Shown in pieces: positions 7,091 through 10,914 of a stretch of DNA of 10,914 nt. The notes beneath the pieces were generated by a model. That model was not told the DNA's origin, ran no database searches, and saw only the letters and a program-made list of their open reading frames with translations. How positions within the stretch are numbered: position 1 is the first letter of the stretch; every line of letters begins with the position of its first letter. A program made the position numbers and the translations under genes. The stretch spans positions 1 to 10,914 of the forward strand of contig DMHA01000237.1 of the NCBI GenBank assembly GCA_003449615.1, given 5' to 3'. The DNA is from Flavobacterium sp. (GTDB taxonomy: Bacteria; Bacteroidota; Bacteroidia; Flavobacteriales; Flavobacteriaceae).

Positions 7091-8266
7091 ATGCGAATTG
7101 TAAAGTATCTTTTTCTATTATTTTTGCTTAGTTTGGTAGCACTATCCATTTTTATTGCCACTCAAAAAGGAGAGTTTAGGGTGGAAAAAAGTATGATTAT
7201 TAATTCTCAAAAATCTACTGCATTTAGTTATGCAAATGAACTAAAAAACTGGGAGGATTGGTATTCCTTGGCAGTTGAAGATTCATTATTGAATATCAAA
7301 TATTCAAACAAAACTGTTGGCAGAGGTTCATTTTGCAGTTGGGAAGGAAAAGAAGGCTATGGAGATTTAAAAATAATAAATCTTAAAGAAAACGATAACA
7401 TTCTGCAAAAAATTAATTTTAATGGAAATTCAGCCGATGTTTTAATGGTTTTTAAAGATACCTTAGGAAAAACAAAAGTGACCTTGAATGCAAAAGGAAA
7501 AATGAATTTTACTTCAAAAATTTGGACATTATTTTATGATATTGACCATAGCATTGGCTTTATTTTTGAAAAAAGTTTAACCAATTTAGATAAAAAATTA
7601 GATTACGAAATAAACACTTATAATGTAAATATAAACGGTGTTGTAAAAAAACTAGAAGCTTTTTATCTGGCGCAAAAGTTCACAAGTAAGTTTTCAAATA
7701 TTGGTAAAAATTCTAGAATTGTCTTTTCTAAAATTACCACTTTTTGTAATGAAAATAATATTAAAGTAAACGGAAAACCTTTTGTAATTTATCATACTTA
7801 CGATACCATAAACAAACAATCCAAAATATCGGTATGCATTCCTATCACAACTCCGATTTTTATCAGCCAAGGAAGCGAAATTTTATCAGACACACTCAAA
7901 TCATTCGAAGCTGTAAAGACAACACTTAGAGGCGATTACACACATACCATCAAAGCATTGAAAAAAACCTCAGAATATTTCAAAAAAAATAACTTGAAAT
8001 TGGACTCTAAGTTTTCACATCTTGAAGTTTATTCTATAGGCAAAAACGAAATCAATAGTCCATCCAAATGGAAAACAGAAATATATTTTCCATTAAGACC
8101 AAAAATTGTTTATAAAAAACCAGCCTTAAATACGGTTACTACCGAAAAAACTGTTCCTAAGCCTATTCAAGAAATGGTTAATAAAAAACCAGCCGTAAAT
8201 CCAGTTACTACCGAAAAAACTGTTCCTAAACCTATTCAAGAAAAAGAAATTCCCTCTGAATTTTAA
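7091..8266 (+). CDS. Membrane-anchored SRPBCC plus GyrI-like domain protein with a repeated Pro/Lys-rich tail
   Basis: A 391-residue protein. Residues 5-23 form one hydrophobic segment (signal anchor or uncleaved signal). Residues ~29-170 resemble the SRPBCC/polyketide cyclase ligand-binding fold, recognised by the start FRVEKSMIINSQKSTAFSYANELKNWEDWYSL, here given as FRVEKSMIINS then NWEDWYSL. Residues ~180-337 resemble a GyrI-like/AraC effector-binding domain (HTYDT, then VCIPI, then a final KWKTEIYFPL). Both folds bind small hydrophobic ligands; no DNA-binding or enzyme motif is seen. Residues ~341-386 are two nearly identical 23-residue repeats (KPA.N.VTTEKTVPKPIQE). The tail is probably an exposed spacer. 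It stands alone between a repeat-bearing gap and the sigma cluster, and a candidate terminator overlaps its stop. Its function is unknown. Confidence 0.75.
   Translation: MRIVKYLFLLFLLSLVALSIFIATQKGEFRVEKSMIINSQKSTAFSYANELKNWEDWYSLAVEDSLLNIKYSNKTVGRGSFCSWEGKEGYGDLKIINLKENDNILQKINFNGNSADVLMVFKDTLGKTKVTLNAKGKMNFTSKIWTLFYDIDHSIGFIFEKSLTNLDKKLDYEINTYNVNINGVVKKLEAFYLAQKFTSKFSNIGKNSRIVFSKITTFCNENNIKVNGKPFVIYHTYDTINKQSKISVCIPITTPIFISQGSEILSDTLKSFEAVKTTLRGDYTHTIKALKKTSEYFKKNNLKLDSKFSHLEVYSIGKNEINSPSKWKTEIYFPLRPKIVYKKPALNTVTTEKTVPKPIQEMVNKKPAVNPVTTEKTVPKPIQEKEIPSEF
8112..8243 (+). repeat. Two 63-base near-identical direct repeats at the 3' end of the SRPBCC/GyrI gene
   Basis: Copies at 8112-8174 and 8181-8243 (period 69 bases, 23 codons) differ at only four positions, three of which are spread over the first 25 bases. 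The near identity at DNA level, including silent sites, points to a recent in-frame duplication. A further 12-base piece TAAACCTATTCA recurs downstream of the stop at 8286-8297. Confidence 0.85.
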
Positions 8267-8276: not shown

Positions 8277-8330
8277 GACTGTGATTAAACCTATTCAGAA
8301 AATTCCAATCTAAAACCATAAATTACAGCT

Positions 8331-8873
8331 TTGCAAGAGGAAAAGGAATTTATTCAAGAGTTATTAAACCCAAAAACGCAAAATCAGGCGTTTGAAAAAC
8401 TATTGAAAGAATATCAAAAACCGCTGTACAGCCACATTCGGAATATCGTTTTGAACCACGATGATGCCAATGATGTTTTGCAAAACACTTTTGTTAAAGT
8501 GTTTCAAAATTTGATAAAATTTAAAGGAGAGAGCAAACTTTTTTCGTGGATGTATCGAATTGCAACTAATGAAGCCTTAACTTTCTTGGCGCAGAAAGCA
8601 AAAAAAAGTGGGATTTCGTCTGAAAGTTTGCAAAACAAAGCCATCGATAATTTGAAAGCCGACGTTTACTTTGATGGAAACGATATTCAGATAAAATTGC
8701 AAAAAGCAATTGTATTATTGCCCGAGAAACAGCAACTCATTTTTAAAATGAAATATTTTGAAGAACTGAAATATGAAGAAATTTCGGAAATACTTGGCAC
8801 TTCGGTTGGAGCTTTGAAAGCCTCATACCATCTTGCCGTAAAAAAAATTGAAGCCTTTGTTACAAAAAATTAA
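8331..8873 (+). CDS. ECF-type RNA polymerase sigma factor (sigma-70 family)
   Basis: A 180-residue sigma factor with only regions 2 and 4. Region 2 covers ~22-92: YQKPLYSHI, then DDANDVLQNTFVKVFQNL, then SWMYRIATNEAL, the last being the -10-recognition part. Region 4 covers ~122-176: LPEKQQLIFKMKYFEELKYE followed by the helix-turn-helix EEISEILGTSVGALKASYHL. The start is TTG at 8331. No in-frame ATG occurs before residue 74, which is inside region 2, and an in-frame stop lies at 8319-8321; the N-terminus also fits family members beginning M-x-E-x-EFI. The gene leads a cluster with a 137-residue membrane protein 30 bases downstream and a secreted sensor-like protein, implying control by a signal at the cell envelope. 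The TTG start may lower expression. No clear promoter is seen upstream. Confidence 0.92.
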   Translation: MQEEKEFIQELLNPKTQNQAFEKLLKEYQKPLYSHIRNIVLNHDDANDVLQNTFVKVFQNLIKFKGESKLFSWMYRIATNEALTFLAQKAKKSGISSESLQNKAIDNLKADVYFDGNDIQIKLQKAIVLLPEKQQLIFKMKYFEELKYEEISEILGTSVGALKASYHLAVKKIEAFVTKN

Positions 8874-8903
8874 ACCTTATGACTTTGATGAAGTCTAACA
8901 AAT

Positions 8904-9317
8904 ATGAAAACATTTAAACTAGATACCGAGCCAAAAATAAACACTGGATTTATTGTTCCCGAGAATTATTTTGAGGATTTTTCGGCAAAAATGATGCAAC
9001 AGTTGCCAAAAAAAGAAACCAAAATAATTTCAATTTTTGGAAGGAAAAAAAATTGGATGTATGCAGCTGCCGCCATTTTGATTTTGGCATTATCACTTCC
9101 TATATATACTAATTTTTTTAGTCATTCATCTGAAATAGATGAAGCCACTTTAGAAAATTATATTTCCTATCACTCTACTGTTTCAGATACAGATTTATTG
9201 AATCTTCTCGACGAACAAGACATTCAAAAAATGAGTGTTGATATGGACATTGAAGATATCACTATCGAAAATGAACTTTCACAAAGCAATAATTTAGAAC
9301 AATACCTATTAAATTAA
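8904..9317 (+). CDS. Single-pass membrane protein, candidate anti-sigma factor
   Basis: A 137-residue protein with a cytosolic N-terminus (1-50), one membrane helix (~51-69, MYAAAAILILALSLPIY) and an outward C-terminus. Basic residues GRKKNW sit just before the helix, giving an N-in/C-out topology. The part after the helix is strongly acidic: 16 Asp/Glu and one Lys in the last ~60 residues. The zinc anti-sigma motif (HxxxCxxC) is absent and there are no cysteines, so it is not a ZAS-type anti-sigma. It resembles unnamed proteins that follow ECF sigma genes in flavobacteria. By topology and position (30 bases after the sigma gene) it is the best candidate for the sigma antagonist, comparable in role to CnrY; no sequence similarity is claimed. 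The assignment is inference. Confidence 0.8.
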   Translation: MKTFKLDTEPKINTGFIVPENYFEDFSAKMMQQLPKKETKIISIFGRKKNWMYAAAAILILALSLPIYTNFFSHSSEIDEATLENYISYHSTVSDTDLLNLLDEQDIQKMSVDMDIEDITIENELSQSNNLEQYLLN

Positions 9318-9323
9318 TACAAA

Positions 9324-9381
9324 ATGGAACGCCTACAAAAATCCTCATTTACACACTGGGTTATAATTATAGGCGTTCCAT
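9324..9381 (+). promoter_or_regulatory. 12-bp perfect stem-loop between the membrane protein and sensor genes
   Basis: ATGGAACGCCTA (9324-9335) and its exact complement TAGGCGTTCCAT (9370-9381) enclose a 34-base loop. The stem is much richer in G and C than its surroundings and begins six bases after the preceding stop. It is followed by A-rich sequence instead of a T-tract, so it is not a standard terminator on this strand. mRNA stabilisation or processing that sets different levels of the two proteins, or a split operator, are possible. Confidence 0.6.
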
Positions 9382-9412
9382 CTGACCGATAAAAAAAAAT
9401 AAAAATAAACAG

Positions 9413-9865
9413 ATGAAAACAAGCAAATTGATACCTATTATTATATTTCTAATTTCAATTCATTCATTTGCACAATCGCATTTAGAAGAAAAGAAAGAAC
9501 AAATTAGAGCTTTGAAAGTTGGTTTTATAACCAATGAATTAGCTTTAACTACTGATGAAGCAACCAAGTTTTGGCCCATTTTTAATGCTTATGATGACAA
9601 ACAATTTGAAATAAGACATCAAAAAATGAAAACATTCAAGCAGCGAATGGATGCTGATTTAGACAAAATGAGCGAAAAAGATGCCTCCGCCCTACTTGCA
9701 CAAATGGAAAATACAGAGGATGAACTGCACCAAATGAGAAAAAAATTTATCGCCAATCTTAAAGGCGTTTTACCATCGGTAAAAATTATAAAACTTAAAA
9801 AAGCTGAAGACGATTTTAATAGAAAACTGCTACAACAATATCGAAATAAAAGACCAAGAAAATAA
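9413..9865 (+). CDS. Secreted Spy/CpxP-like protein, candidate periplasmic sensor of the ECF sigma system
   Basis: A 150-residue protein with signal peptide MKTSKLIPIIIFLISIHSFA (cleavage before Gln21) and an otherwise helical, highly charged mature chain. The segment LALTTDEATKFWPIFNAYDD (43-62) is the LTxxEAxxFWPxxN signature of Bacteroidetes proteins often labelled 'sensor of ECF-type sigma factor', related to the Spy/CpxP/CnrX helical-hairpin fold. Met and His residues (His69, Met72, Met79, Met86, Met98, His106, Met108) are spread along the predicted hairpin and could bind metal as in CnrX, but this is unproven. The C-terminus is basic (RNKRPRK). It is the third gene of the sigma operon, preceded by a stem-loop. 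It could equally be a periplasmic chaperone like Spy. Confidence 0.82.
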   Translation: MKTSKLIPIIIFLISIHSFAQSHLEEKKEQIRALKVGFITNELALTTDEATKFWPIFNAYDDKQFEIRHQKMKTFKQRMDADLDKMSEKDASALLAQMENTEDELHQMRKKFIANLKGVLPSVKIIKLKKAEDDFNRKLLQQYRNKRPRK

Positions 9866-9898
9866 AATTAGATTGTTTTAAAAATTCAATTTTATTTT
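9859..9898 (+). terminator. AT-rich hairpin at the end of the sensor gene (possible terminator)
   Basis: AAAATAAAATT (9859-9869) pairs perfectly with AATTTTATTTT (9888-9898) over 11 bases around an 18-base spacer. It overlaps the stop codon of the sensor gene, and its right arm supplies a T-rich end. All pairs are A-T, so stability is modest. Confidence 0.35.
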
Positions 9899-9922
9899 AA
9901 AAATATTATTAATCGTAATCAA

Positions 9923-9951
9923 TTGATTTAAAGAATCTTAAAATAACTTTC
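9923..9951 (+). promoter_or_regulatory. Possible promoter of the last gene
   Basis: TTG (9923-9925) is followed after 18 bases by TAACTTTC (9944-9951), one mismatch from TAnnTTTG. A perfect 12-bp palindrome AATCAATTGATT (9917-9928) overlaps the TTG, as an operator could. The predicted leader would be about 70 bases, longer than elsewhere in the window. An ECF-type promoter cannot be excluded. Confidence 0.3.
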
Positions 9952-10030
9952 GTGAAATAAACACACATCAATATAATTTATTGGCACAGTAATTGGATTG
10001 CTTGAATCAAATCACTAAATCTTAATTATT

Positions 10031-10914
10031 ATGAAAACTCAACTACTTTTATTAGCCTTAATCAGTTCGGTATTTTCAACCCAAATACAAGGACAAAACA
10101 GAACAATTGTAAATGCACAAAACTCTGAAATTAGCGACAATTTAGATTTAAGGGTTGTGGCTTCCATTTTTGGAGATTCAAGAAACTTGCAGGAATTTGA
10201 AAGACAATTGAATGATCCTAAACTTCAAATATCAAATTTGGATTTGAATAATGATGGACAAGTAGATTATCTAAGAGTCATAGAATCTGTTGAAAAACGA
10301 ACCCATCTTGTGATCATTCAATCGGTTCTTAATCGAGATATTTATCAAGATGTCGCTTCTATTGAAGTGGAAAAAAACTGGAATAACAATATTCAAATTC
10401 AAGTGGTAGGTAATCCTTATTTTTACGGGCAAAATTATATTTATGAACCTGTTTTTTATAGAACACCATTAATTTATGCTAGTTTTTGGATGACTAATTA
10501 TCGACCCTATTATTCCATTTGGAACTGGAATTATTATCCAAGTTATTTTTATGCTTGGAATACCTACCCAGTGTTTCGATACAGAAATAACGTAAATATT
10601 TGCTTAAACAATTACAGCAATAATCATTACAACTACGTAAATTACAGAAGAAGTAGTTATGCAGCAAATAATTATAACAGAAGCCGCTCGAATGGATATG
10701 AAAGCCAACATCCTAATAATTCTTTTTCAAGAAGAAACGCTACCGTAAGTAATCGTCACGAATTAGACCAGATAAGAAATACTAGAAATGGAGGCACTAG
10801 AAGCGAAATTGGATATTCACAAAGAAGAACTGAATCTTCAAGAGAAAATACCCCTCAAAGAAATGTAAATCAAAGAGATTATTCTCAAAACCGAACTGAA
10901 ACTCCAAGAGAAGC
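10031..10914 (+). CDS. Secreted protein with EF-hand-like loop and Tyr/Trp-rich region (3' end outside the window)
   Basis: An open frame of 294 codons with no stop before the window edge. It begins MKTQLLLLALISSVFSTQIQ, a signal peptide. Residues 33-128 form a compact domain (SEISDNLDLRVVASIFGDS ... IQIQVVGN) containing DLNNDGQVD at 71-79, the calcium-loop pattern DxNxDGxxD of EF-hand and dockerin repeats, but lacking the usual acidic residue at position 12 (Arg82). Residues ~130-185 are rich in Tyr, Trp and Phe (NYIYEPVFYR, then YRPYYSIWNWNYYPSYFYAW). From ~205 the chain is low-complexity, rich in Arg, Ser, Asn and Gln, with repeats such as RRTESSREN and NRTETPREA. I recall related proteins next to ECF sigma genes in flavobacteria, without known function. 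It is likely exported and envelope-associated, and may be a target or partner of the sigma system. Confidence 0.8.
   Translation, partial: MKTQLLLLALISSVFSTQIQGQNRTIVNAQNSEISDNLDLRVVASIFGDSRNLQEFERQLNDPKLQISNLDLNNDGQVDYLRVIESVEKRTHLVIIQSVLNRDIYQDVASIEVEKNWNNNIQIQVVGNPYFYGQNYIYEPVFYRTPLIYASFWMTNYRPYYSIWNWNYYPSYFYAWNTYPVFRYRNNVNICLNNYSNNHYNYVNYRRSSYAANNYNRSRSNGYESQHPNNSFSRRNATVSNRHELDQIRNTRNGGTRSEIGYSQRRTESSRENTPQRNVNQRDYSQNRTETPRE

Follow-up and report, generated by a model that had tools for sequence, protein, structure and literature searches.

A repeat-built candidate anti-sigma protein between an ECF sigma factor and a Spy-like protein in Flavobacterium

We analyzed a 10,914-nucleotide stretch of DNA (the window), which is the entire contig DMHA01000237.1 of a Flavobacterium sp. 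genome that is 76% complete; our reading ends where the contig ends. Near that end, three genes in a row on one strand encode a sigma factor of the extracytoplasmic function (ECF) type, a single-pass membrane protein, and a Spy/CpxP-like exported protein (Table 1). These probably form an autoregulated envelope-stress module (we estimate a probability of about 70%), in which the membrane protein holds the sigma factor, the Spy-like protein reports on the envelope, and two candidate promoters, P1 and P2, provide feedback. What is new is that the inner arm of the membrane protein is built from a repeat and that a candidate promoter overlaps the stop codon of the sigma gene. The membrane protein is possibly an undescribed type of anti-sigma protein.

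In the mechanism that we propose, the membrane-proximal GFxVPxxYF motif of the inner arm would hold the ECF sigma by the linker between regions sigma2 and sigma4, as our models predict, and the held sigma would be kept off RNA polymerase. Beyond the inner membrane, the Spy-like protein would report the state of the envelope to the acidic outer tail of the membrane protein, the simplest route being that misfolded protein draws it away; this is the weakest step. Freed sigma would transcribe its own gene from P1, the genes for the membrane protein and the Spy-like protein from P2, and also a small set of mostly exported proteins. The promoter motif is conserved, and this sigma presumably reads it. 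Because P2 is located after the sigma gene, it would raise the antagonist over sigma and so end the response.

Conservation of the three genes

The initial annotation of the window had proposed a three-gene unit of an ECF sigma, a single-pass membrane protein lacking HxxxCxxC, and a Spy/CpxP-type protein, and the gene set is present as it stated. The first gene does encode an ECF sigma factor: regions 2 and 4 are both above the curated Pfam cut-offs (Sigma70_r2, 42.9 bits against 24; Sigma70_r4_2, 53.5 bits against 25.7), and the NCBIfam model sigma70-ECF scores 95.1 bits (cut-off 42.9). We also tried PRK11922, TIGR02985, and NF058625 as the exact family of the sigma, and all of these scored below their cut-offs.

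The annotation had staked its proposal on the three genes occurring together across genomes, and a neighborhood survey upheld this. With an alignment of the Spy-like protein as the query, we gathered 566 confirmed loci and used the best 80 of them (the named loci). One of these (L109) is cut by a contig end and was left out of the counts; in the 79 that are testable, all three genes are present in one fixed order (sigma, membrane protein, Spy-like protein). In the 29 best foreign loci anchored on the membrane protein, sigma is present in all 29 and the Spy-like gene is adjacent in 28, and a second membrane protein-anchored set of 29 loci has all three genes within each locus. At the class level, 19 of 20 regions hold the triad in order; the other one (L088) has a FecR-type protein and was dropped before counting, which leaves 19/19 for sigma and for the Spy-like protein. 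These locus sets overlap partly, and because similarity guided their choice, they speak to linkage and not to frequency.

We searched 120 genomes of the family, each of a different genus, with the membrane protein as a single-sequence query: 83 matched (its own genome included), and 81 of these had one match. A phylum-wide profile search matched 52 of 247 genomes, 27 of them from its own family. No own-family genome is among the 20 misses that were listed (175 further misses were unlisted), and the single match beyond the class was weak and was not read.

The inner arm and its predicted docking on sigma

The membrane protein has no cysteine and no HxxxCxxC. About 53 inner residues with a net charge of +4 are followed by one hydrophobic segment and by a 65-residue outer tail, in which 16 residues are Asp/Glu and 1 is Lys/Arg. 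The annotation had pointed out these 16 acidic residues along with the basic C-terminus of the Spy-like protein (RNKRPRK). Both are confirmed, and the pattern is family-wide: the net outer charge of 157 proteins ranges from -27 to -4 (median -16), and the final 15 residues of the Spy-like protein carry a charge of at least +3 in 72 of 80 cases. Neither the window's membrane protein nor four relatives match any Pfam family above the cut-off. Databases name it "hypothetical protein"; several relatives are labeled "flagellar basal body-associated protein FliL" at JGI, which looks like a wrong transfer.

From column counts in the alignment of relatives, the inner-arm motif is G-F-x-[VT]-P-x-x-Y-F-x-x-L-x-x-x-I. 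This unit of about 31 residues is present once in the window's protein, which hides the repeats from anyone who reads the window alone, and 1 to 7 times in relatives, with tandem copies spaced at a median of 31 residues (quartiles 29 and 32). One copy is present in 51 of 146 distinct proteins, two in 82, three in 10, and five, six, or seven in one protein each. Flavobacterium has a single copy, most of the other family members that we read have two, and the number reaches 7 further out. Several of the seven copies in L070 are nearly identical, a sign of recent duplication, and other families of the class (L081-L086) have single copies too. The threshold for calling a copy was 4.0 bits, a level reached by 2 of the ten best scores shown for 785 shuffled sequences. 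A false third repeat in L033 and L089 was corrected by hand before counting, and L080 was counted as having one repeat, with a second weak copy visible by eye.

We built AlphaFold models of read-through fusions for a one-repeat protein and a two-repeat protein. In both models, the membrane-proximal motif is placed on the sigma2-sigma4 linker, and the distal repeat is undocked. The blocks with the first part of the docking motif have a predicted local distance difference test score (pLDDT) of 89-90. The linker sequence differs in paralogs of the sigma. The contact between sigma and the membrane protein that the annotation had expected a complex prediction to reveal is thus supported at the level of models. 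In a structure search with the model, the closest neighbors were inhibited sigma complexes, with SigW/RsiW the best for the sigma part. The membrane protein would inhibit its sigma.

Could it help the sigma instead, as a membrane tether or co-activator? FecR-type proteins can act in this way, P2 would raise the membrane protein together with the response, and the present data do not fix the sign of the regulation. However, the predicted docking on the linker and the inhibited complexes among the structural neighbors both argue against such a role, which we consider quite improbable. A different extension of the anti-sigma reading is that each GFxVPxxYF repeat can dock a sigma on its own: one membrane protein could then hold several sigmas, and the gain or loss of repeats would set the storage capacity and the response threshold. 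This sigma trap of variable valency is speculative, and we would bet against it; the number of repeats does allow one to test directly whether a stress threshold is set by the valency of the anti-sigma.

Class I anti-sigma domains are found near 6% of the ECF sigmas of Bacteroidetes, as compared to 32% over all phyla, and in the excerpted text of that coevolution study, other anti-sigma classes are suggested to perhaps dominate in Bacteroidetes (PMC7406223). The GFxVPxxYF family provides a concrete anti-sigma candidate for one conserved ECF sigma of Bacteroidota. It is not a general answer for the phylum, because the other ECF genes that we read in three genomes have no neighbor of this kind. 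Specifically, we examined 60 regions surrounding ECF genes in G222, G121, and a part of G152: 58 regions contain 62 sigma open reading frames (ORFs) (L282 and L307 contain none), of which 52 have a downstream neighbor on the same strand, and we scored these neighbors. Only the triad itself (L266) was clear, at 59.5 bits. The next whole-protein repeat scores (6.1, 5.3, and 4.7) are under the maximum for the 785 shuffled sequences (6.6) and over the level for calling copies. With one clear match among the surveyed neighbors, we rejected the repeat as a general anti-sigma of Bacteroidota. At L261 (G222:C1:601000-606000; 6.1 bits), the gene after another ECF sigma encodes a 138-residue protein with one transmembrane segment, a short inner arm, and no VPxxYF, which is perhaps a different small type of anti-sigma.

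Promoters, candidate regulon, and neighboring features

In 47 of the 79 named loci, the spacer between the sigma and membrane protein genes measures 30 or 33 bp, and judging by its length, the two genes share a frame in 58 of 79. We dropped recoding or read-through as the cause of the shared frame: it is unneeded, since a conserved promoter accounts for the spacing. In the named loci, the spacer contains TAAACCTTT-N13-GTC-W-W-A, with its -35 half over the sigma stop codon. The relaxed form of this motif is present in 74/79 spacers and the strict form in 62/79; within 200 bp upstream of sigma, the corresponding counts are 53/77 and 16/77, and in background windows they are 282/11421 and 35/11421. 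At the class level, the relaxed motif is found in 11 of 19 spacers and in 6 of 19 regions upstream of sigma. The ECF motif of Flavobacterium psychrophilum has a CGT box, which, as given in the excerpt of PMC9723704, is not obviously the GTC box of the triad promoters.

Across 51 Flavobacterium genomes, the strict pattern has 74 sites in 37 genomes (our own count), as compared to 10 for the reversed control. One site (G402), whose surroundings were not fetched, was dropped, and we read 69 distinct sites; about 44 of these, against the control's 10, remain once the 25 triad sites are removed. The downstream gene encodes the membrane protein at 16 sites, sigma at 9, a small exported protein that is LTxxQ-like by eye at 6, a Porph_ging protein at 5, a protein with weak CarboxypepD_reg and Plug matches at 4, DUF1800 at 4, a Beta-lactamase-family protein at 3, and an HlyD-type adaptor at 3, where each family name rests on one representative. 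Another 11 sites with a downstream ORF comprise one pair and nine singles; 8 sites have no downstream ORF, and 4 lie inside an ORF. The source genome has one site before the small exported LTxxQ-like protein (L173; best Pfam LTXXQ E value, 0.011). Judged from these sequences, the output of the candidate regulon looks like envelope upkeep.

Table 1. Features of the sigma, membrane protein, and Spy-like gene cluster in the window
Feature	Position	Strand	Evidence
P1, candidate ECF promoter before sigma, AAACC-N16-ATCTA	8287..8312	+	Relaxed motif match in window
ECF sigma factor, 180 amino acids, TTG start	8331..8873	+	Pfam Sigma70_r2 and r4_2 above cut-off; NCBIfam sigma70-ECF
Sigma2-sigma4 linker DVYFDG, residues 111-116, predicted docking site near F114	8661..8678	+	Both models have a DSSP bridge mark at residue 114
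P2, candidate ECF promoter between sigma and membrane protein gene, AAACC-N16-GTCTA	8872..8897	+	Relaxed motif; -35 overlaps sigma stop codon
Single-pass membrane protein, candidate anti-sigma factor, 137 amino acids	8904..9317	+	ORF; kept beside sigma
Docking motif GFIVPENYFEDFSAKMMQQL, residues 15-34, single repeat copy	8946..9005	+	Alignment, copy counts, pLDDT
Predicted transmembrane segment, residues 54-72	9063..9119	+	Hydropathy scan
Acidic outer tail, 65 residues, net charge -15	9120..9314	+	Residue count
Spy/CpxP-like exported protein, candidate sensor, 150 amino acids	9413..9865	+	Database names; LTXXQ matches in family members; neighbor in 79/79
Fourth exported ORF (gene 4)	Starts 10031, runs past contig end		

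Gene 4, which holds LDLNNDGQVDYLRV, had been put forward as an output of the module or a calcium-responsive partner, and this did not hold up. It has no EF-hand Pfam match at E ≤ 1. Of the 80 named loci, 23 have a relative downstream (21 carry Flavobacterium in their title), and in 20 of these 23, an opposite-strand gene of 346-364 residues separates it from the triad. On these counts, we rejected gene 4 as a member of the unit; it is a neighbor. Upstream of it, 2 of the 23 loci have a weak, distant match to the relaxed motif, and the window's copy has no such site. In L228, the promoter pattern lies before a distant relative (28% identity across 170 columns), so relatives of gene 4 may belong to the regulon elsewhere.

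Elsewhere in the window, a hairpin-forming repeat (9318-9415; -21.3 kcal/mol, z -5.5) fills the gap between the membrane protein and Spy-like genes and ends at the start codon of the latter. It is matched, at least partly, at 10 more places in the source genome and in 10 of 40 other Flavobacterium genomes, and an ORF starts at the end of the repeat in 4 of the 7 copies that we read. A GyrI-like protein before the cluster has two near-identical KKPA.N.VTTEKTVPKPIQE stretches at its C-terminal end (8120-8263), and a Flavo-1 RNA (RF01705) is at 1555-1636 (76.2 bits; gathering score, 42).

The exported partner and known systems

Relatives of the Spy-like protein are named "sensor of ECF-type sigma factor" by NCBI and "Spy/CpxP family protein refolding chaperone" by JGI; the sensor idea is already an existing database annotation. 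In the open-licence literature, we found no paper on this sensor in Flavobacterium and none joining three of CnrX, CnrY, Spy, and CpxP, and papers returned for tandem-repeat ECF anti-sigmas of Bacteroidetes were off topic by their listing; we do not claim that the family is absent from print. At E ≤ 1, 6 of 17 relatives match Pfam LTXXQ (best E value, 2.3e-8), and the window's protein has no match. In the model, the Spy part forms long helices (core blocks, pLDDT 92-98). Its profile has no Spy match among PDB sequences at E ≤ 1, and in the structure search with the fusion models, the fold lists were filled by sigma chains.

Several results weigh against the module as we propose it. The annotation had suggested direct electrostatic contact between the outer tail and the Spy-like protein, and the model shows no confident contact: the tail has a pLDDT of 46-76, the predicted template modeling score is 0.47, and the model knows no membrane, so such a contact may still exist. 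The fusion linker itself forces sigma and the membrane protein to be near each other. Across 149 sigma-motif pairs, mutual information failed to pick out the docking site. A search of PDB sequences with the profile of the membrane protein lists no CnrY at E ≤ 10, although arms this short may escape. The strict pattern was derived from the triad promoters, which inflates its enrichment, and a wider promoter pattern showed no excess in 7 genomes (22 sites, control 21).

The Spy-like protein might be merely an output chaperone, with the membrane protein still the anti-sigma and its outer tail itself reading the signal, for example by regulated proteolysis, which is the signal step in RseA. In its favor, the Spy-like gene would be an output under P2, the pattern also precedes a second LTxxQ-like small exported protein (6/69 distinct sites), and confident contact with the tail is missing from the model. 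Besides charge, tail residues E112, Y114, E150, and Y152 are conserved, which suggests recognition beyond charge. But the Spy-like gene is kept beside the membrane protein throughout, which is more than a mere output needs. We regard this alternative as a serious contender that we do not favor, and we prefer a Spy-like protein that reports.

Among known systems, the class I zinc anti-sigmas (RsiW and RseA) are likewise membrane antagonists encoded beside their own sigma. They have HxxxCxxC, whereas 0 of 157 members of this family do, so it is not of the zinc type. Class I proteins without zinc place an ASDI fold between sigma2 and sigma4; this protein has no Pfam match above the cut-off and is modeled as one short motif and a helix. 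Spy/CpxP chaperones (Pfam LTXXQ) are likewise small exported helical proteins; the Spy-like protein differs by its own FWPIYN core, which was favored by selection because our scan for these sensors used it, and by always being beside a sigma factor in the loci read. NCBI's sensor of Flavobacterium is the same protein family (up to 87% identity) and amounts to a name alone.

The triad had also been likened to CnrYXH, a class II system, with a CnrX-like sensor. The short inner arm and single transmembrane segment (by hydropathy alone) are shared, and the order does differ, as had been said: cnrYXH runs antagonist, sensor, sigma, as its name gives it, while the triad is sigma, antagonist, sensor at all 79 testable loci. 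CnrX-like metal sensing is not supported. As compared to CnrYXH of Cupriavidus metallidurans (PDB 4cxf), the triad has a repeated motif and lacks conserved metal residues, and no CnrY match is listed at E ≤ 10. A metal-sensing system of this type would fit the small one-segment antagonist, the helical periplasmic partner, Pfam Metal_resist matches in 6 of 17 sensor relatives (best E value, 7.8e-5), and the 3 of 69 sites before an HlyD-type adaptor. However, no His, Met, or Cys column is conserved at 60% or more in 81 aligned sensors, the gene order differs, and most of the other candidate targets have no metal link, so we consider metal sensing very improbable. Finally, in the excerpt of PMC7406223, CnrY docks via two helices on sigma4 and sigma2, whereas the triad's motif is predicted to dock on the sigma2-sigma4 linker. 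Overall, the triad resembles in its working an anti-sigma module that has a periplasmic partner, and its membership in CnrYXH is not established.
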